DNA from: Alphaproteobacteria bacterium
GTDB lineage: Bacteria; Pseudomonadota; Alphaproteobacteria; Rhodobacterales; Rhodobacteraceae
Reading direction: 5' to 3'
Assembly: GCA_030426685.1 (NCBI GenBank)
Contig: JAUHYC010000001.1
Coordinates: 1-64,000, forward strand
Length of the DNA stretch: 64,000 nucleotides
Made by a program: the position numbers and the translations under genes. Below the pieces are notes generated by a model. It ran no database searches, had not been told where the DNA came from, and saw only the letters and a list, made by a program, of their open reading frames with translations. This document shows positions 23,820 to 31,545 of this stretch, one piece after another. Numbering within the stretch: the first letter of the stretch is position 1; every line of letters begins with the position of its first letter.

Positions 23820-25196
23820 TTAGTTGGTTATGATCTCCGGTCCCATGAAGGTGTTGGGTAGGAAAGTCGATATCCATGGGATGTATGTCACCATGATCAG
23901 GAACACGAACAGCACGGCCAGGAACGGCAGCGCAGCCCGCACCACACTCATCATCGGCATTCCGGCCACGCCCGAGGTCACGAACAAGTTCAGACCGACC
24001 GGAGGCGTGATCATCCCGATTTCCATGTTTACCACCATGATGATGCCCAGATGGATCGGATCGATGCCCAGTTCTATGGCAATCGGGAACACCAGAGGTG
24101 CCACGATGACCAGCAGGCCCGAAGGCTCCATGAACTGACCGCCGATCAGCAGGATCACATTGACCACGATCAGGAATGTCACCGGGCCCAGACCCGCCGA
24201 CAGCATCGCACTGGCAATGTGCTGCGGCACCTGCTCATCCGTCAACACGTGTTTGAGGATCAGCGCGTTGGCAATGACGAACAGCAGCGTCACCGTCAGC
24301 TTGCCTGCCTCAAACAACGTGTGCTTGGTGTCGGGATGGAAGAAGGCCGTGATCAGCGCATAGGGTTTCTTGAACAGCGGAATGTTCGGTGCATCCCCTT
24401 TGGTGCTCAGCGGACCCATATCTTTGTAGATAAAGCTCGCGATCAGGAACGCATAGACAGCAGCCACCGCAGCGGCTTCGGTCGGGGTGAAGATACCGCC
24501 ATAGATACCGCCCAGGATGATCACGATCAGGAACAAGCCCCAACCGGCCTCGCGCGCTGATACGAAGATCTCGCCCCAGCCCTTCCAATCTCCTTTGGGC
24601 AGGTTCTTGACCTTGGCCATAACGTAGATGGTGACCATCAACATCAAGCCCGCCATCAAGCCCGGAATGACCCCTGCAAGGAACATCCGCCCGACCGAGA
24701 CCTCAACAGCGGCCGCGTAGACGACCATCACGATCGACGGCGGGATCAGGATGCCGAGCGTACCCGCGTTACAAATCACACCAGCTGCGAATTCCTTGGA
24801 ATATCCAACCTGACGCATCCCCGCGATCACAATCGAACCGATGGCCACAACGGTCGCCGGAGAGGACCCCGAGAGCGCAGCAAAAAGCATACAGGCGAAA
24901 ACACCCGCAATTGCCAGTCCGCCTGGCAAATGCCCCACACAGGCTATCGAAAAGCGAATGATCCGCCGCGCCACACCACCCGTTGTCATGAAGGACGAGG
25001 CCAAAATGAAGAACGGGATCGCGAGCAGGGTAAAGTGCCCCTCGAACGCCTCAAAAAGTGTACCCGCGACCGAGGCAAGAGAACTGTCAGAGTAGATCAA
25101 CAGGAACAGGGTCGAGCTGAGGCCCAGTGCCACCGCAATCGGAACCCCGATCAGCAGCAGGCCAATGACCATTGAGAAGAGAAGTACAACATCCAT
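23820..25196 (-). CDS. dctM: TRAP transporter large permease subunit
   Basis: A 458-residue inner-membrane protein, the ion-coupled transport subunit (12-helix DctM/TRAP-M family) of a tripartite ATP-independent periplasmic transporter. Hydrophobic segments run throughout, and the family loops AGMRQVGYSKEFAAGVICNAGTLGI and the closing MIT­PPVGLN-type segment (EIGMITPPVGLNLFV) are present. Its start overlaps the dctQ stop by one base (TGATG). Likely substrate is a C4-dicarboxylate, inferred from the adjacent dctP and the dctBD regulators. Confidence 0.93.
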   Translation of the reverse strand: MDVVLLFSMVIGLLLIGVPIAVALGLSSTLFLLIYSDSSLASVAGTLFEAFEGHFTLLAIPFFILASSFMTTGGVARRIIRFSIACVGHLPGGLAIAGVFACMLFAALSGSSPATVVAIGSIVIAGMRQVGYSKEFAAGVICNAGTLGILIPPSIVMVVYAAAVEVSVGRMFLAGVIPGLMAGLMLMVTIYVMAKVKNLPKGDWKGWGEIFVSAREAGWGLFLIVIILGGIYGGIFTPTEAAAVAAVYAFLIASFIYKDMGPLSTKGDAPNIPLFKKPYALITAFFHPDTKHTLFEAGKLTVTLLFVIANALILKHVLTDEQVPQHIASAMLSAGLGPVTFLIVVNVILLIGGQFMEPSGLLVIVAPLVFPIAIELGIDPIHLGIIMVVNMEIGMITPPVGLNLFVTSGVAGMPMMSVVRAALPFLAVLFVFLIMVTYIPWISTFLPNTFMGPEIITN

Positions 25197-25873
25197 CAGT
25201 CATGCTCCCCCTGCTGGGCCCGGACCTCTTCGATTTCGTCCTCGACCTCGTGGCTGGCGACCATGCGGTCGGTCTCGCCGCGCCAGATTTGCACCGCGAC
25301 CTGAGCAAAGCGGATCACGAGCAGCAGCATCGATACCGGCAGCACCAGATATGGCACGACCTTGGGAAGCTTTTCGTAGCCCTCACCATAGTTGATCAAA
25401 TCTTCCAAGAACCGCAACGGGGCGACCATCGGGATGTCGTCGACCTCGTAGAAGCTCTGGCTGCGCGCACTCATGTCAAAGCCGGTCGGAAACCAGCGGC
25501 CCGAGGTCGGTGGTAAATCGGCAAATACAGCCCAATAATCGTAGGACCCCTTGAGCAGAAGCAGTGAAAACACCAGGCAGCACCCGACGGCAATCAGCGC
25601 CAATATCCGGCGCGGTGCCGGGGCCAGCATGTTCAGTATCGCGTCCACCCCCAGATGCGCGTGTTTCTTAACGGCATAGGATGCGCCTAGAAGCACCAGC
25701 CATCCAAAGGTGAAAACTGTCAGCTCCAACGCCCACAAAATGTTAGAGTTAAACACAAAACGTGCGATCACGTTGGCGAAGGTGACGACCGTCATCAGCC
25801 CCAACAGCAATGCGATCACCGTCTCTTCGATATGGTCAACCAGCCCGCTTGGGCCGGGTTTAGCACCAGACAT
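25196..25873 (-). CDS. dctQ: TRAP transporter small permease subunit
   Basis: A 225-residue inner-membrane protein with four hydrophobic helices, the DctQ subunit that links the binding protein to DctM. The opening LLGLMTVVTFANVIARFVF is the conserved first helix, followed by the WALELTVFTFGWLVLLGASYAVKKHAHLGVDAIL segment typical of the family. The loop between helices 3 and 4 is longer than usual (about residues 125-165). It lies between dctP, 112 bases upstream, and dctM, with which it overlaps. Confidence 0.9.
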   Translation of the reverse strand: MSGAKPGPSGLVDHIEETVIALLLGLMTVVTFANVIARFVFNSNILWALELTVFTFGWLVLLGASYAVKKHAHLGVDAILNMLAPAPRRILALIAVGCCLVFSLLLLKGSYDYWAVFADLPPTSGRWFPTGFDMSARSQSFYEVDDIPMVAPLRFLEDLINYGEGYEKLPKVVPYLVLPVSMLLLVIRFAQVAVQIWRGETDRMVASHEVEDEIEEVRAQQGEHD

Positions 25874-25985: not shown

Positions 25986-26987
25986 TCAGAACCCGGCGTT
26001 GATCGCCTGAGCAGCGTCGATCTTATCCTGACCCACGTCATCGGCGAACTTGTCCCAGACGGGCTTCATCGCATCGACCCAAGCCTGACGCTGTTCCGGA
26101 TTCAGCTCGCGAATGATGCCACCTGCATCAATGATCGAAGCTTTGGCCGCTTCGTTCACGGCAAAGGCTTCCTTGTTCCGGGTCGCCGTCACTTCGGCGA
26201 GAATGGTCAGGAATTGATCGCGGACTTCGGGGTCCAGGCTGTCCAGCCAGTCGACCGATGTCACAACCAGATAATCAATGATGCCGTGGTTGGTTTCGGT
26301 GATGCCATCCTGCACCTCAAAGAACTTCTTGCCGTAGATATTCGACCAGGTGTTCTCCTGCCCGTCCACAACGCCCTGCTGCAGCGCGCCATACACTTCC
26401 GAGAACGCCATCTTTTGCGGGCTGCCACCGATGGCTTCCATCTGAGCAACCAGAACGTCCGAGGATTGAACACGGAACTTCAGGCCATCTGCGTCCGACG
26501 GGTCAACCAGCGGCTTGTTGGCCGACATCTGCTTCATGCCATTATGCCAGAACGCCAGCCCCTGCAGACCGCGGCGTTGCATGCTGTCTTTCATTGCCTG
26601 ACCGGCATCCGACGCCTGGAACGCATCCACAGCATCGATATTCTTGAACATGAACGGCAGGTCAAACAGACGGAACTGCTTGGTGAACTTCTCGAATTTC
26701 GACAGCGACGGAGCGGCCAGCTGAACGTCACCCTGAAGCATTGCCTCCAATACCTTGTCGTCATTGTACAGCGTCGAGTTCGGGTAAACCTCCATGCACA
26801 TCACACCGTTCATCTCGTCGTTGACACGGCTCTCCAACATCGCGGCGGCGACCCCCTTGGGGTGTTTGTCGGTGTTCGTCACATGCGCAAACTTGACCAC
26901 GATCTCGCCATCATCGCAGGCTGCCATACCTGCAGTTGCAGTTACCGTAAGCGCAAGCGCGGTAGCGGCTGTTGTCAAAAATTTCAT
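25986..26987 (-). CDS. dctP: TRAP transporter periplasmic solute-binding protein (C4-dicarboxylate)
   Basis: A 333-residue exported protein with signal peptide (MKFLTTAATALALTVTATAGMAA) and the DctP/TRAP-P fold. Conserved blocks: IVVKFAHVTNTDKHPKGVA at the mature N-terminus, FRLFDLPFMFKN, the substrate-Arg region LKFRVQSSDV and PQKMAFSEVYGALQQGVVDGQENTW. The DctP subtype binds succinate, malate and fumarate. Its promoter lies at 27133-27161, under DctD dyads; the stem-loop after its stop separates it from dctQM. Confidence 0.93.
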   Translation of the reverse strand: MKFLTTAATALALTVTATAGMAACDDGEIVVKFAHVTNTDKHPKGVAAAMLESRVNDEMNGVMCMEVYPNSTLYNDDKVLEAMLQGDVQLAAPSLSKFEKFTKQFRLFDLPFMFKNIDAVDAFQASDAGQAMKDSMQRRGLQGLAFWHNGMKQMSANKPLVDPSDADGLKFRVQSSDVLVAQMEAIGGSPQKMAFSEVYGALQQGVVDGQENTWSNIYGKKFFEVQDGITETNHGIIDYLVVTSVDWLDSLDPEVRDQFLTILAEVTATRNKEAFAVNEAAKASIIDAGGIIRELNPEQRQAWVDAMKPVWDKFADDVGQDKIDAAQAINAGF

Positions 26988-27132
26988 AAGTCTCTTCCTC
27001 CCGGACTTCCTTGAACTTCAATCAGACGCTCAATCAGCGCCGTATGACGCAAAGTGAAGCGAATCGCCGTGATGCGCTCAAGACTTTGTTTGAATGGACA
27101 TTGAAAACGTAAATATCTTTTTATTACATATG

Positions 27133-27161
27133 ATTATAAAAACGCGCCTCCCCCACCAATC
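27133..27161 (-). promoter_or_regulatory. Predicted sigma70-type promoter of dctP
   Basis: The minus strand carries a perfect TATAAT at 27133-27138 and a poor -35 (GATTGG, 27156-27161) 17 bases upstream, the pattern of an activator-dependent promoter. The implied +1 near 27126 is about 139 bases before the dctP start. DctD-type dyads lie just upstream. Confidence 0.5.
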
Positions 27162-27178: not shown

Positions 27179-27196
27179 TGTGCGAAAATTCGCACA
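27179..27196. promoter_or_regulatory. Operator dyad proximal to dctP (DctD site)
   Basis: An 18-base inverted repeat TGTGCGAAAATTCGCACA with perfect 8-base arms. It resembles the rhizobial DctD upstream activator site core TGTGCG-N6-CGCACA. Its centre is 61.5 bases from the predicted dctP start point. Confidence 0.65.
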
Positions 27197-27210: not shown

Positions 27211-27228
27211 TGTGCGGTTTTTCGCACA
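27211..27228. promoter_or_regulatory. Operator dyad distal to dctP (DctD site)
   Basis: A second 18-base site TGTGCG-GTTTTT-CGCACA with perfect 6-base arms. Its centre is 32 bases (about three helical turns) from the proximal dyad, so two regulator dimers would bind the same face. Confidence 0.65.
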
Positions 27229-27356: not shown

Positions 27357-28586
27357 CTACCGCCGATAATCCTCAGGCCGGATTTGGTAGCGCGCCAATT
27401 TGTCATAGAAAGTCTTGCGCGGCAGTTTCAGCGCCTTCGCGGCGTCTGCGGCTTTGCCATTGTGACGCCCAAGCGCCGCAATCAGCAATGACCGCTCAAC
27501 CCGGGCCAGCTGTTCGCTCAGCCCCAGATCTGCGGCTTGCGCGACTTCCTCTGGCATTCCCAGAACAAATCGCATCGCCGCCGACATCAGGGACCGCGCG
27601 TTCCCCGGCCAGTCTTGCGACATGAGCGAGGCAAGATGTTCAGGCGTCACTTCGGGCTCTGCAAGCCCAGCCTGTTCTGCTGCCTGCGCCACATAATGCC
27701 TGAAGATCACCGGGATGTCCTCAGGCCGTTCAGACAAGGAAGGAATGCGCACCCGCATAACATCCAGACGGTAGAACAAATCCGCATTGAATCGCCCCTG
27801 CGCGGATAACTCGGACAGGTCTGCCGTCGTGCCCGCGATAATCCTCGCGTCCGTGTCCTGCTCGACAAGTTCCAGCATCGCGTATTGGGTCGCATCTGAC
27901 ATGGCCGAAACCTCGTCCAGAAACAGCGATCCACAGGATGCATCCTCGTATCCCCGGCGCAGGCCCTCTGCTGTCAGCGCCGAAGCCGATCGTTTGACAA
28001 ACGGCCCCTGCCCAACCGGAGACATCAGGTGTACAACTTCCGCCACCTTCGAAATCCCGCTGCCCACTGGCCCGGTGACCAATACTTCGGCCCGTGTGGG
28101 TGCCACGGCGCGTACTCGCTCACGCAAAGCTTCGGCTTGCTCGGACAAACCAAAAAGCATCCTGGCGGCTGGGTCACCCCGCTCAAGCTCGCTCTTTTGT
28201 TCCCGCAGTTGCAACACCTCGGCGCGCGTGGAAAAGGCACGTTCCAAGACCGACAGTAAATCAGCCGCAGTGCAGGGCTTTTCCAGAAAATCAAAAGCTC
28301 CCTGCCCCATGGCTTGAACCGCCATTGGAATATCGCCCTCGCCCGTCAACAGGATCACGGGCAGTTCCGGGTCAACCTCACGCGCATAGTTCAACAGATG
28401 AAACCCGTCCCGGCCCGGCATACGGATGTCCGAGACGATCACGCCAGAAAACTCCCGTCTGATGTGATCCTTGGCGGCGACAAAAGACCCTGCAGTCACA
28501 GGTTCGTAGTCAGCCAACTCAAGTGTTTGGGCCAATGCTTCGCGTACTGCCGCATCGTCGTCTACCAAAAGAACCTTTCGGATCAT
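27357..28586 (-). CDS. dctD: DctD-like response regulator with degenerate AAA+ domain
   Basis: A 409-residue regulator paired with the upstream DctB kinase. The receiver domain is complete (VDDD at residues 8-11; phosphorylation Asp53 in VSDIRMPG). The central AAA+ domain is defective for the classic sigma54 role: Walker A reads GPVGSGIS with Ile in place of the essential Lys, and the whole ELFGHExGAFTGA block is missing between VKRSAS and GSLFLDEV, although Walker B is kept. A Fis-type HTH closes the protein (AADAAKALKLPRKTFYDKL). Start ATG 28586 overlaps the dctB stop (ATGA). Its sites on the dctP promoter fit activation of sigma70 polymerase. Confidence 0.88.
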   Translation of the reverse strand: MIRKVLLVDDDAAVREALAQTLELADYEPVTAGSFVAAKDHIRREFSGVIVSDIRMPGRDGFHLLNYAREVDPELPVILLTGEGDIPMAVQAMGQGAFDFLEKPCTAADLLSVLERAFSTRAEVLQLREQKSELERGDPAARMLFGLSEQAEALRERVRAVAPTRAEVLVTGPVGSGISKVAEVVHLMSPVGQGPFVKRSASALTAEGLRRGYEDASCGSLFLDEVSAMSDATQYAMLELVEQDTDARIIAGTTADLSELSAQGRFNADLFYRLDVMRVRIPSLSERPEDIPVIFRHYVAQAAEQAGLAEPEVTPEHLASLMSQDWPGNARSLMSAAMRFVLGMPEEVAQAADLGLSEQLARVERSLLIAALGRHNGKAADAAKALKLPRKTFYDKLARYQIRPEDYRR

Positions 28587-30316
28587 CGCATTTCGTCCTC
28601 TTTGCAAGGCTCGAGTTCGACCGTAAATTCGGCACCATCTTCGGTGTTCGTGCCCCGAATATCGCCCCCGAAGCTTTGCACCAGACCGTAGGAGATAGAC
28701 AGACCCAACCCCATACCTTCAGAGCTTCCAACCGATTTGGTGGTGTAGAACGGTTCAAACATCCGATCCGGATCCTCAATGCCGGGGCCTGTATCACGCA
28801 CTGCGACACGGATGCGCGTGTCCTCGACAAGCGTGATTGATATCCGCCGGGTCTGTTGATCTATCATCGCATCTGCTGCGTTGTTGATCAGGTTGACGAA
28901 GACCTGAACCAGGCGCACCTCTCCTCCCCATGCGTAGATCTCTTTGTCAGGTGGCGTCCAATTCAGTTCGACACCCTCATCGTTCAGACGCGCCTCAGTC
29001 AATTCTACGGCCGTGTTCAGCACCTGGACCAGCTCGACCCGCCCCATCGGCTCACTCTCGTTGCGGGCAAATGCGCGCAGGTTTTTGATGATCCGCGCCA
29101 TTCGCGCCGCCATATCCGAGATACGGCCGAGATTCTCACCTGCCTTCTTCCCCTTGCCGCGTTCAAGAAAGGCCGCGCCGTTATCCGCAAATTGCCGGAT
29201 GGCCATCAACGGCTGGTTCAACTCATGGCTGATACCGGCAGACATCTTTCCCAGTGCGCTCAGCTTACCAGCCTGCACCAGATCCGCCTGCGCCTGTTTC
29301 AGAGCTGCTTCCGCTTCCTGTCGTTCGATCACTTCCCGCCGCAACGCCGTGTTTGCGGCCGTCAAAGCCCGCGTTCGCTGCGCCACGCGGCTTTCCAGCA
29401 CAGTATTGGCCAGGGCCAGCGCACGCCGCCGTTCTGAGGCGAGGAATAACAGAGCACCAAATGCGAAACAAATCGCGGCAACCGCCGCCGCTTGCAAACC
29501 CGCGAGCCGCCTCGCTGGGGCAACATCCACCAGCACTTCGGCGGTCATGTCTATAACCGGCAAACCGAGCGTCAGGTGCAACGCGCGACTGGGAAAATAG
29601 CGCCCCCAGTTCAGTCGCCACAATTCATGCCCGTCAACACGGGTCGAAGCAAATTCGGTGACTTCACCCCCCGGTGGGACCAGCCCCGGCTGCCCTTCCA
29701 ACCGCTCCCAGAACAACAAATCCGAACGGTTTGAAATAAAGACCACCCCGTCGCCATCAACAAAGAACACTGCTTCTGTGCTGCCTCGCCAAGTCTGTTC
29801 TACATCCTGTACATCAGCAACGATCATTAGTGCACCTTCCACCAGCCCCGTTGGACCAAAGGTCGGAGCAACATAGGAATAGATGCGATCACCGTTGTCT
29901 GGCTGAACTCCATGTGCGCTGCCCAACGCCCCTTGCAACGCGCGTTCAAAGGCCGGGTGCCCAGCCAGGCTGCGCTGCCGGATCGGCTGTGCGGCGACCT
30001 GAACGCGGCCGCTTCGGTCCAGATACATCACGTTCACCGCGGCTGTCTTGTCGGCCACATCCAACAACACAGCCTGTGCCACTTGCCGCTGTTCCTCGGT
30101 TTCAAGCGACCGCAGGGCGGGATGATCGGCCATCAGCACCGCAACTTCCTGATAAACCTGCATCTGCGTGCTCAGCCGGTCGGCAGCCAGCTCAAGATCG
30201 GCCTCGGCCTGCTGGCTAAGCTGTGTCAGCGCCTGGCGATAGCCATAGGTCCAGACTGCTGAGGATAACAGTCCAACCGCACACAGAAATCCGACAATGA
30301 CCCAAACCCTTTGCAT
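28583..30316 (-). CDS. dctB: DctB-type sensor histidine kinase
   Basis: A 577-residue membrane kinase: a TM helix near residues 7-25, a periplasmic double-PAS (dCache) sensor of about 250 residues, a second TM (AAAVAAICFAFGALLFLAS), then a coiled coil. The kinase core has the H box GISHELNQPLMAIRQ, the N box region VNLINNAADAM and the G2 box GMGLGLSISYGLV. Such DctB proteins sense C4-dicarboxylates directly. It overlaps dctD by 4 bases, and its 5' end faces a P450 gene 30 bases away. Confidence 0.93.
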   Translation of the reverse strand: MQRVWVIVGFLCAVGLLSSAVWTYGYRQALTQLSQQAEADLELAADRLSTQMQVYQEVAVLMADHPALRSLETEEQRQVAQAVLLDVADKTAAVNVMYLDRSGRVQVAAQPIRQRSLAGHPAFERALQGALGSAHGVQPDNGDRIYSYVAPTFGPTGLVEGALMIVADVQDVEQTWRGSTEAVFFVDGDGVVFISNRSDLLFWERLEGQPGLVPPGGEVTEFASTRVDGHELWRLNWGRYFPSRALHLTLGLPVIDMTAEVLVDVAPARRLAGLQAAAVAAICFAFGALLFLASERRRALALANTVLESRVAQRTRALTAANTALRREVIERQEAEAALKQAQADLVQAGKLSALGKMSAGISHELNQPLMAIRQFADNGAAFLERGKGKKAGENLGRISDMAARMARIIKNLRAFARNESEPMGRVELVQVLNTAVELTEARLNDEGVELNWTPPDKEIYAWGGEVRLVQVFVNLINNAADAMIDQQTRRISITLVEDTRIRVAVRDTGPGIEDPDRMFEPFYTTKSVGSSEGMGLGLSISYGLVQSFGGDIRGTNTEDGAEFTVELEPCKEDEMR

Positions 30317-30345
30317 GTCTAAGGGTCTTGCATTCAGAGCCGCCT

Positions 30346-31545
30346 ATGGCAAGTCTGCACCGCATGCAGACCGTCACCCAATCCCCGACCGATCCTGCCT
30401 TTGTGCAAAACCCTTATCTGTTCTACGACACTGCCCGCCAGTTCGGGGACCTCGTTTATTGGGAAGATTACGACATGGTGGCAGCGGTCTCTCATAGTGC
30501 TGTACAGGCCCTGTTGCGTGATCGCCGCTTCGGTCGCGAAGTCCCGCCCGAGCTCACCAAACCCAGCCCCGAACACCTCGCCCCCTGGATAGCGGTCGAA
30601 GCGCACTCAATGCTCGAACTGGAACCGCCCCGGCATACACGTCTGCGTTCGCTGGTTCTGCGGGCATTCACTTCGCGCGCGATAGCAGAACTCGCACCTT
30701 CGGTCGAAGCCCTGTGCCACGAACTGATCGACCGTTTCCCGGATGAACCCTTTGATCTTCTGGAAGCCTATTGCACTCAGATTCCCGTTATAACAATTTG
30801 CCGCTTGCTGGGCGTTCCCGAGCACATGGCGCCGCAATTACTGACCTGGTCACATGCGATGGTTGCCATGTATCAGGCCAACCGAACCCGCCAGACCGAA
30901 GATGCCGCCGCCCGCGCTTCGAATGAGTTCACAGCGTTTCTCGAAGAGTATGTCGAACAACGCCGCAAGGACCCGCGCGATGATCTGATCACACGTCTCA
31001 TCTCAGCAGAAGAAGAAGGTGAAAAACTATCGCGCAAAGAGCTTATTACAACCTGCATCCTTCTGCTGAACGCCGGACACGAAGCAACCGTTCATGCGCT
31101 CGGGAACGGGGTGAAGACTGTTCTTGCCACAGGTACCCAGGAACAGATTACATCACTCGAAACCATCGACAAAGCAGTCGAAGAAATCCTGCGTTTCGAT
31201 CCGCCCCTCCATATGTTCACGCGGTACGCATATGAGGATGTCGAAATCTGCGGACATTCGTTTGCGCGCGGTGACGAAGTGGCCCTGCTTCTGGGCGCGG
31301 CCAACCGCGATCCGGAAATCTGGTCTGACCCCAACACCTTCGATCCATCCCGAAACGTCACTCCGAATACAAGCTTTGGCGGTGGCCTGCATTTCTGTGT
31401 CGGCGCCCCGCTGGCGCGTCTGGAAATGCGCATCGCCCTGCCGATCCTGTTCAACAGATGCCCCGAACTGAACTTAGTGGACGGCGCGCGCTATTCGAAC
31501 AGCTATCACTTCCATGGGTTGACCGAACTGATCGCGCAAATCTGA
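30346..31545 (+). CDS. Cytochrome P450
   Basis: A 399-residue soluble bacterial (class I-type) P450. The I-helix oxygen motif is AGHEATVH, the ExxR-type helix is EEILRFDPPLHMFTR, and the haem-ligand motif FGGGLHFCVGAPLARLE places Cys at about 351. The substrate is unknown. No ferredoxin or ferredoxin reductase is adjacent, although a ferredoxin-NADP reductase is encoded 4 kb downstream. The start is uncertain: ATG 30346 or ATG 30364, neither with a strong ribosome site. It is divergent from dctB. Confidence 0.9.
   Translation: MASLHRMQTVTQSPTDPAFVQNPYLFYDTARQFGDLVYWEDYDMVAAVSHSAVQALLRDRRFGREVPPELTKPSPEHLAPWIAVEAHSMLELEPPRHTRLRSLVLRAFTSRAIAELAPSVEALCHELIDRFPDEPFDLLEAYCTQIPVITICRLLGVPEHMAPQLLTWSHAMVAMYQANRTRQTEDAAARASNEFTAFLEEYVEQRRKDPRDDLITRLISAEEEGEKLSRKELITTCILLLNAGHEATVHALGNGVKTVLATGTQEQITSLETIDKAVEEILRFDPPLHMFTRYAYEDVEICGHSFARGDEVALLLGAANRDPEIWSDPNTFDPSRNVTPNTSFGGGLHFCVGAPLARLEMRIALPILFNRCPELNLVDGARYSNSYHFHGLTELIAQI

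Follow-up and report, generated by a model that had tools for sequence, protein, structure and literature searches.

We analysed a window of 64,000 nucleotides from a member of the Rhodobacteraceae (assembly GCA_030426685.1, contig JAUHYC010000001.1), the minus strand of which carries a dctB-dctD-dctP-dctQ-dctM locus (Table 1). The same gene order was found in 80/80 named relatives, which were mostly Ruegeria, the remainder being other roseobacters or Rhodobacteraceae. The regulator was assigned to the DctD type on the basis of its DctB partner and its position beside dicarboxylate transport genes, and the product of dctP is similar to DctP proteins of known structure, with 4o94 as the best match (348 bits). 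A cytochrome P450-like open reading frame at 30328-31545 on the plus strand, spotted by eye from the string FGGGLHFCVGAPLA, diverges from dctB.

Table 1. Features of the dct locus, in window coordinates.
Feature	Position	Strand	Details
dctB-type sensor kinase	28583..30316	-	HisKA, HATPase; dCache under cut-off; overlaps dctD start
dctD-type response regulator	27357..28586	-	409 aa; Walker A Lys and GAFTGA loop absent
Receiver domain	28245..28574	-	residues 5-114; phospho-acceptor Asp53 at 28428-28430; Pfam Response_reg, E 1.3e-25
Degenerate Walker A, GPVGSGIS	28050..28073	-	residues 172-179
Site of 19 missing residues including GAFTGA	27953..27954	-	between residues 211 and 212; alignment against L155
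Walker B, SLFLDE	27912..27929	-	residues 220-225; retained
Fis-type HTH	27387..27509	-	residues 360-400; Pfam HTH_8; many near-invariant core positions
Operator 1, TGTGCGAAAAACCGCACA	27211..27228	-	
Operator 2, TGTGCGAATTTTCGCACA	27179..27196	-	32 bp from operator 1
IHF-like element, TAATCATATGTAAT	27123..27136	-	
Putative -35, TTGAGC	27076..27081	-	conserved box
Putative -10, TTCACT	27053..27058	-	17-bp spacer; inferred start near 27046
dctP	25986..26987	-	TRAP substrate-binding protein
dctQ	25196..25873	-	
dctM	23820..25196	-	

The regulator shows the receiver, AAA+ and Fis-type HTH order of NtrC-family response regulators, with Pfam domains above the cut-off; the best Sigma54_activat stretch covers residues 214-279 (profile positions 90-167) and AAA_lid_14 covers residues 286-354. 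The original prediction held that the receiver and HTH domains are intact, that the Walker A lysine has been replaced, and that the GAFTGA stretch is gone with Walker B kept, and the analysis bore this out on every point. The sequence GPVGSGIS stands where GxxGxGK is expected, with Ile at residue 178, the position of the lysine, and alignment against a GAFTGA-bearing relative taken as the reference (L155) placed the 19 absent residues between R211 and G212. Lacking both GAFTGA and the Walker A lysine, the protein falls outside the sigma54-dependent bacterial enhancer-binding proteins (bEBPs). An AlphaFold2 model calculated from 50 sequences had a mean pLDDT of 83.4 and block means of 87-95 across residues 151-290, with a pTM of 0.52 that makes its domain packing unreliable. 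Foldseek searches with this model ranked NtrX of Brucella and 1ny5, the sigma54 activator NtrC1, highest and placed VpsR at rank 11 (20% identity). These pLDDT values and matches predict that the AAA+ core still folds. The best NCBIfam match was PgtA of Salmonella (NF047793, 276 bits), and since the alignment runs end-to-end on the 414-position model, PgtA is of similarly short length. The score lies far below the cut-off of 650 bits, so that the regulator is not a member of that family; for PgtA itself, an interaction with sigma54 has been suggested from a model (PMC11077982).

Within the genus, an orthologue of at least 80% identity was present in 36/36 relatives examined. A search of the family returned a match at 1e-75 or better in 151/296 genomes, of which two were left out (G132, truncated by the end of its contig, and G147, with a match of 4e-76), leaving 149 proteins for examination. 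We refer to 138 of these 149, from 138 genomes, as the core; the other 11 keep the Walker A lysine. At the lysine position the core orthologues carry I (69), T (44), V (17), L (3), N (3), M (1) or S (1), and the GAFTGA loop is absent from 138/138. Asp53, Lys103 and the HTH residues R390, T392 and D395 are each kept in 138/138, R331 is retained in 137/138, and in Walker B Asp224 is found in 132/138 and Glu225 in 119/138. In L189, which belongs to the core, an in-frame stop interrupts the sequence at residue 91. The dN/dS ratio among 30 genus sequences was about 0.05 over the whole protein, with 0.07 for the stretch from Walker A to Walker B, values calculated from every third pair, with saturated-dS pairs dropped, and meaningful to an order of magnitude only. 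On these ratios the DctD-type core is under purifying selection. An error of sequencing or assembly, named by the original prediction as an outcome that could overturn it, is contradicted by the identical state in 138/138 core genomes together with the low dN/dS. The two losses proposed for this protein are thus real, and what changed is their scope, since they are not confined to one genome but extend across a clade, in which they arose stepwise.

The order of the two losses was read from two trees. Tree 1 contained 81 proteins (40 rows that keep the lysine plus 41 drawn from the 138 of the core) and was rooted at its midpoint. At the base of the line leading to the core stand proteins with both GAFTGA and the lysine (L282, L155), next come loop-less, lysine-bearing proteins (L153, L151, L152), and then a side group with the lysine kept and no Walker B (L154, L156-L158) together with the lysine-less core, whose branch has support of 100/99; weak forks in this tree have 85/47, 99/65 and 94/12. 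Tree 2, calculated from 66 rows with the Walker A and loop columns removed, L003 and L004 left out and L168 as outgroup, repeats this ladder with SH-aLRT values of 98% for all loop-less rows of the line, 92 at L151/L152, 98 for the side group plus core and 98 for the core. At the level of sequence, and irrespective of the relative order of L282 and L155 or of L151 and L152, the ladder shows that the GAFTGA loop was lost first and the Walker A lysine later. The side-group proteins L154, L156, L157 and L158, sister to the core, are loop-less and DctD-like. A further loop-less protein with the lysine kept and no Walker B (L314), identified by sequence outside the tree sampling, sits in an RpoN-bearing genome outside the family. 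A separate DctD-like clade (L159-L161, L283-L310) has GAFPGA, GAFAGA or GAFVGA with an intact Walker A; about half of its members that were read lie in genomes without a strong RpoN match, and two (L291 and L301) also adjoin a dctP homologue. This clade is a possible second route of sigma54 loss.

The gap between dctD and dctP in the host contains two TGTGCG-N6-CGCACA sites, 32 bp apart. Among the core loci, 122/138 have dctP downstream within the fetched DNA. The exact pattern TG[TC]GCG-N6-CGC[AG]CA was present in 100/122 of these gaps and the reversed pattern in 0/122, and a pair at 31-34 bp with a score of at least 19 of 24 was found in 120/122 gaps compared with 0/610 shuffles. The spacing in these 120 gaps was 33 bp (73 gaps), 32 bp (42) or 34 bp (5). 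By a slightly looser pattern, the operator was recovered at 70/80 named loci. An GGCGCTAAC-like string recurs between operators 1 and 2 in part of the core, for example in L209, L217 and L273. Across the host genome there are three exact matches to the pattern, two of them in the dctD-dctP gap and the third, on contig C67, differently centred. A wider regulon was considered and dropped, since with one mismatch the operator occurs in 11 places in the host genome and the reversed control in 10, giving no genome-wide excess.

Downstream of the operators, the string TAANNNNTTGAAAT recurs about 42 bp past operator 2, scoring at least 7 of 10 in 99/120 core gaps and in 15% of shuffles. The reverse complement of the family motif resembles the IHF consensus WATCAANNNNTTR, and the distance of the element from operator 2 is near-fixed (97/120 within one base). 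The offset falls at 41-43 in 70/120 core gaps and at 30-32 in 15/120, and in this minority (L061, L163, L164, L178 and others) the element lies about 11 bp, or one helical turn, closer to operator 2. Further on, CTTGA at about +97 from operator 2 scored at least 7 in 107/120 core gaps compared with 30% of shuffles; the -35-like box lies at +95 to +100 in 88/120, and in 81 of the 107 gaps with CTTGA the hexamer 17 bp further on ends in T. Because the IHF-like and -35 consensus strings were scored in the very gaps from which they were drawn, part of their excess over shuffles is to be expected, and the near-fixed positions are the better sign. A TAAG..TTGAAA block was at one stage considered as the -35 element and was dropped, because the block is IHF-like on the other strand and there is, further down, a box that has a 17-bp spacer. 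A generic sigma70 scan of the host gap found no site above threshold, and TTCACT makes a poor -10; the promoter would therefore be weak without an activator.

A -24/-12 promoter, by comparison, did not stand out from chance in the core. Scored against base shuffles, 1/120 core gaps reached p<0.05, which is no excess, and the best -24/-12 score at the locus studied here (L001) had p=0.565. The GAFTGA-bearing relatives L155 and L168 have -24/-12 elements beside dctP (TGGCATGGATTCTGCA, p 0.005, and TGGCACGCAGCTTGCG, matched by 0/200 shuffles, respectively), and the loop-less, lysine-bearing L151-L153 have none (p 0.315 to 0.925). In the 350 bp downstream of the 40 lysine-keeping proteins, five reached p<0.05 where about two were expected (L155, L168, L282, L305 and L307), and two of the five adjoin dctP. 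Outside the family, 10 loci were read, with GAFTGA in 7, GSFTGA in 1, GAFPGA in 1 and no such motif in 1; within 400 bp downstream, -24/-12-like sites were seen at 4/10 and operator-like sites at 2/10, as raw counts uncorrected for chance and taken irrespective of which gene follows. The layout common to the family core thus runs from the operators through the IHF-like element to the -35/-10-like box. The appeal of the original prediction to the design of the adjacent dctP promoter agrees with this picture, in which tandem operators, an IHF-like element and TTGAGC-N17-TTCACT are accompanied by no -24/-12 signal in the core.

We also looked for sigma54 itself. Searches of the host genome (95.9% complete) with PF04552 and PF04963 gave 0 matches; among 14 control genomes, both searches were positive in 4. 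PF04552 matched 7 of the 54 genomes of the genus (6 above the cut-off, 5 of those strong), a survey that includes 18 genomes, the host and 17 others, outside the 36 relatives checked for orthologues. In the family 102/296 genomes had a match, 95 above the cut-off and 93 counted as strong, among which the match of G087 is partial and stop-containing and those of G083 and G084 are split. A strong match was present in 31/138 core genomes and missing from 107/138, so that RpoN is rarer in the core than in the other family genomes (31/138 vs 62/158, Fisher p 0.0025, uncorrected for kinship). Outside the family RpoN was present in 12/12 of the genomes examined, and the genome of L168 has RpoN. Since the loop-less L152 and L153 sit in RpoN-bearing genomes (G243 and G292) and 31/138 core genomes also carry RpoN, loss of the loop as a mere consequence of RpoN loss is not supported. 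The host has three further full-length NtrC-family proteins (L002-L004), all of which keep the lysine and lack GAFTGA. By position and likeness, L003 and L004 (host contig C47, L322) may be NtrC/NtrX-like. L002 and its sensor (host contig C102, L321, 3679-5013 and 5025-6803, both on the minus strand) form a second DctB-DctD-type pair, whose neighbours by eye resemble RNase E and purine genes; same-genus relatives carry a 37-38% match of the same kind.

The DctD of rhizobia works as a sigma54 ATPase and controls dctA. The regulator described here shares with it the receiver (PDB 1l5y, the DctD receiver of S. meliloti, 105 bits), the domain order, a DctB partner and a dicarboxylate transport target, and differs from it in having no GAFTGA loop, no Walker A lysine and no -24/-12 promoter, and in lying beside a TRAP transporter. 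HupR of Rhodobacter capsulatus works from far-upstream sites with IHF at a sigma70 promoter; it controls hydrogenase genes, is active in the unphosphorylated form, and its operator differs from those in the dctD-dctP gap. TyrR, DhaR, HupR, VpsR and YplP have been named as GAFTGA-defective, and HupR has been described as a paralogue that lost its interaction with sigma54 (PMC3162934). Rhodobacter NtrC, the precedent invoked by the original prediction, is reported for R. capsulatus to lack GAFTGA and to act through sigma70, and to need ATP binding rather than hydrolysis (PMC10274813, citing Bowman and Kranz 1998). It belongs to the same NtrC family and shares the loss of GAFTGA, and differs in subfamily and regulon. 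It is a partial precedent only, since it parts from the DctD-type protein in its need for ATP binding, the latter having lost the ATP-binding lysine. VpsR, which also lacks GAFTGA and acts at sigma70 promoters, is reported not to require ATP (PMC10274813), and is thereby closer than R. capsulatus NtrC in this respect and matches the modelled fold; it differs in binding c-di-GMP, as reported for the Vibrio cholerae protein (PMC5552954), in its unrelated regulon and in having 20% identity over the fold alignment. R. capsulatus NtrC, HupR and VpsR are the closest precedents. VfmH and BerB were rejected as precedents, since they keep GAFTDA or GAFTGA. We found no earlier report of a DctD without both loop and lysine in the open-licence literature, and as far as that literature shows, what is new is that the lysine loss is fixed throughout a clade of orthologues and that the promoter class has changed to match.

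Published genetics in Ruegeria pomeroyi DSS-3 bear on the function of the locus. In transposon mutants of SPO2626 (dctM), SPO2628 (dctP) and SPO2630, the OD drop was reported as 99.1, 96.7 and 96.9% on fumarate, 92.6, 75.2 and 81.8% on succinate, and 48.6, 11.2 (n.s.) and 12.7% (n.s.) on malate, respectively, and dctMPQ was described as transporting fumarate, malate and succinate (PMC10130141). SPO2630 is named a C4-dicarboxylate transport sensor protein (PMC4809877), and negative fitness values are given for SPO2626, SPO2627 and SPO2630 (PMC10041152). From the gene numbers and the gene order in the R. pomeroyi strain examined (L126), which has identical gene order and promoter elements, we infer that the SPO genes are orthologues of this locus. 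The dctB locus is thus, according to PMC10130141, required for growth of R. pomeroyi on fumarate, and the dctB insertion may act through the downstream dctD; a search of the open-licence literature by locus tag found no mutant of dctD (SPO2629). Because an RpoN match is present in the strain checked, these genetics do not come from a sigma54-free background.

Taken together, these results make it probable that the protein is switched by phosphorylation, binds at enhancers and activates a sigma70-type polymerase for dctPQM, probably independently of nucleotide, and that it descends from a sigma54 DctD. The sigma70-type dicarboxylate activator put forward by the original prediction is, with the conserved promoter layout and no detectable RpoN in the host, still the best reading of the sequence. 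The ancestor would have been a normal sigma54-dependent AAA+ DctD that lost the loop and then the Walker A lysine, with the dctP promoter shifting from the -24/-12 to the -35/-10 type and the tandem upstream operators retained. In the present system, DctB would phosphorylate Asp53, the likely trigger, upon which proteins bound at the two operators (centres at about -174 and -142 from the inferred start) would assemble. A bend at the IHF-like element would then deliver operator-bound DctD to sigma70-type RNA polymerase at TTGAGC-N17-TTCACT. Activation would proceed through contact or recruitment and involve no ATP-driven remodelling, the AAA+ core serving as a folded and probably nucleotide-free platform for oligomerisation and contact, and in this way the DctB-DctD pair would turn on the adjoining dctPQM TRAP transporter for C4-dicarboxylates.

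The retention of Walker B and other AAA+ residues in most of the core would be odd if nucleotide were never bound, and it counts against the nucleotide-free part of this reading. The main rival is an activator of the same sigma70 type whose altered AAA+ pocket, or a site near it, still takes up a nucleotide, or else c-di-GMP in the manner of VpsR and FleQ, with the ligand setting the oligomeric state. It draws on the Walker B Asp and R331 (kept in 132/138 and 137/138) and on the resemblance of the predicted model to VpsR; set against these, the ATP-binding lysine is gone in 138/138 and the Walker B Glu varies (119/138), and we regard it as rather unlikely. If phosphorylated DctD instead relieved repression exerted at dctP by another protein or by DNA structure, with no direct activation of polymerase, operators lying this far upstream would be accommodated, as would a known requirement that is limited to the dctB locus. 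The IHF-like and -35-like elements nevertheless keep near-fixed positions (97/120 within one base, and 88/120 at +95 to +100), as is anticipated for an activator, which renders derepression improbable.

Continued activation of sigma54 by the protein, by way of an RpoN that escaped detection or of a partner bEBP whose loop is intact, could be entertained given that some members of the genus and family carry RpoN and that the host assembly is 95.9% complete. This seems very improbable, since two models detect no RpoN in the host, L002-L004 are all without GAFTGA, and the core gaps show no -24/-12 excess. Gene decay or faulty assembly is scarcely credible as an explanation; the in-frame stop in L189 fits decay, and against both stand the identical state in 138/138 core genomes and the low dN/dS.

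Returning to the sigma70-type activator, we lean towards a view in which a sigma54 motor of the AAA+ type became, in this family-wide clade, a switch worked by phosphorylation and independent of nucleotide. Dismantling of the ATP site would have followed loss of the loop, the promoter would have gone from -24/-12 to -35/-10 behind tandem enhancers that stayed largely as they were, and the enhancer-plus-bend arrangement would now serve sigma70, with the protein steps surviving in living relatives. The 'sigma54-dependent' label that these proteins carry through the name of a Pfam domain is probably misleading. Beside dctP, the relatives form a graded natural series, from GAFTGA with the lysine, through loop-less with the lysine, to loop-less without it, which shares the kind of operator and changes promoter class. 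The conversion of a sigma54 enhancer-dependent activator into a sigma70 activator, and the role of a pseudo-AAA+ domain, are therefore open to experiment in this series. Since dctMPQ has been suggested to be the sole fumarate transporter of R. pomeroyi (PMC10130141), the switch bears on carbon uptake by marine roseobacters.
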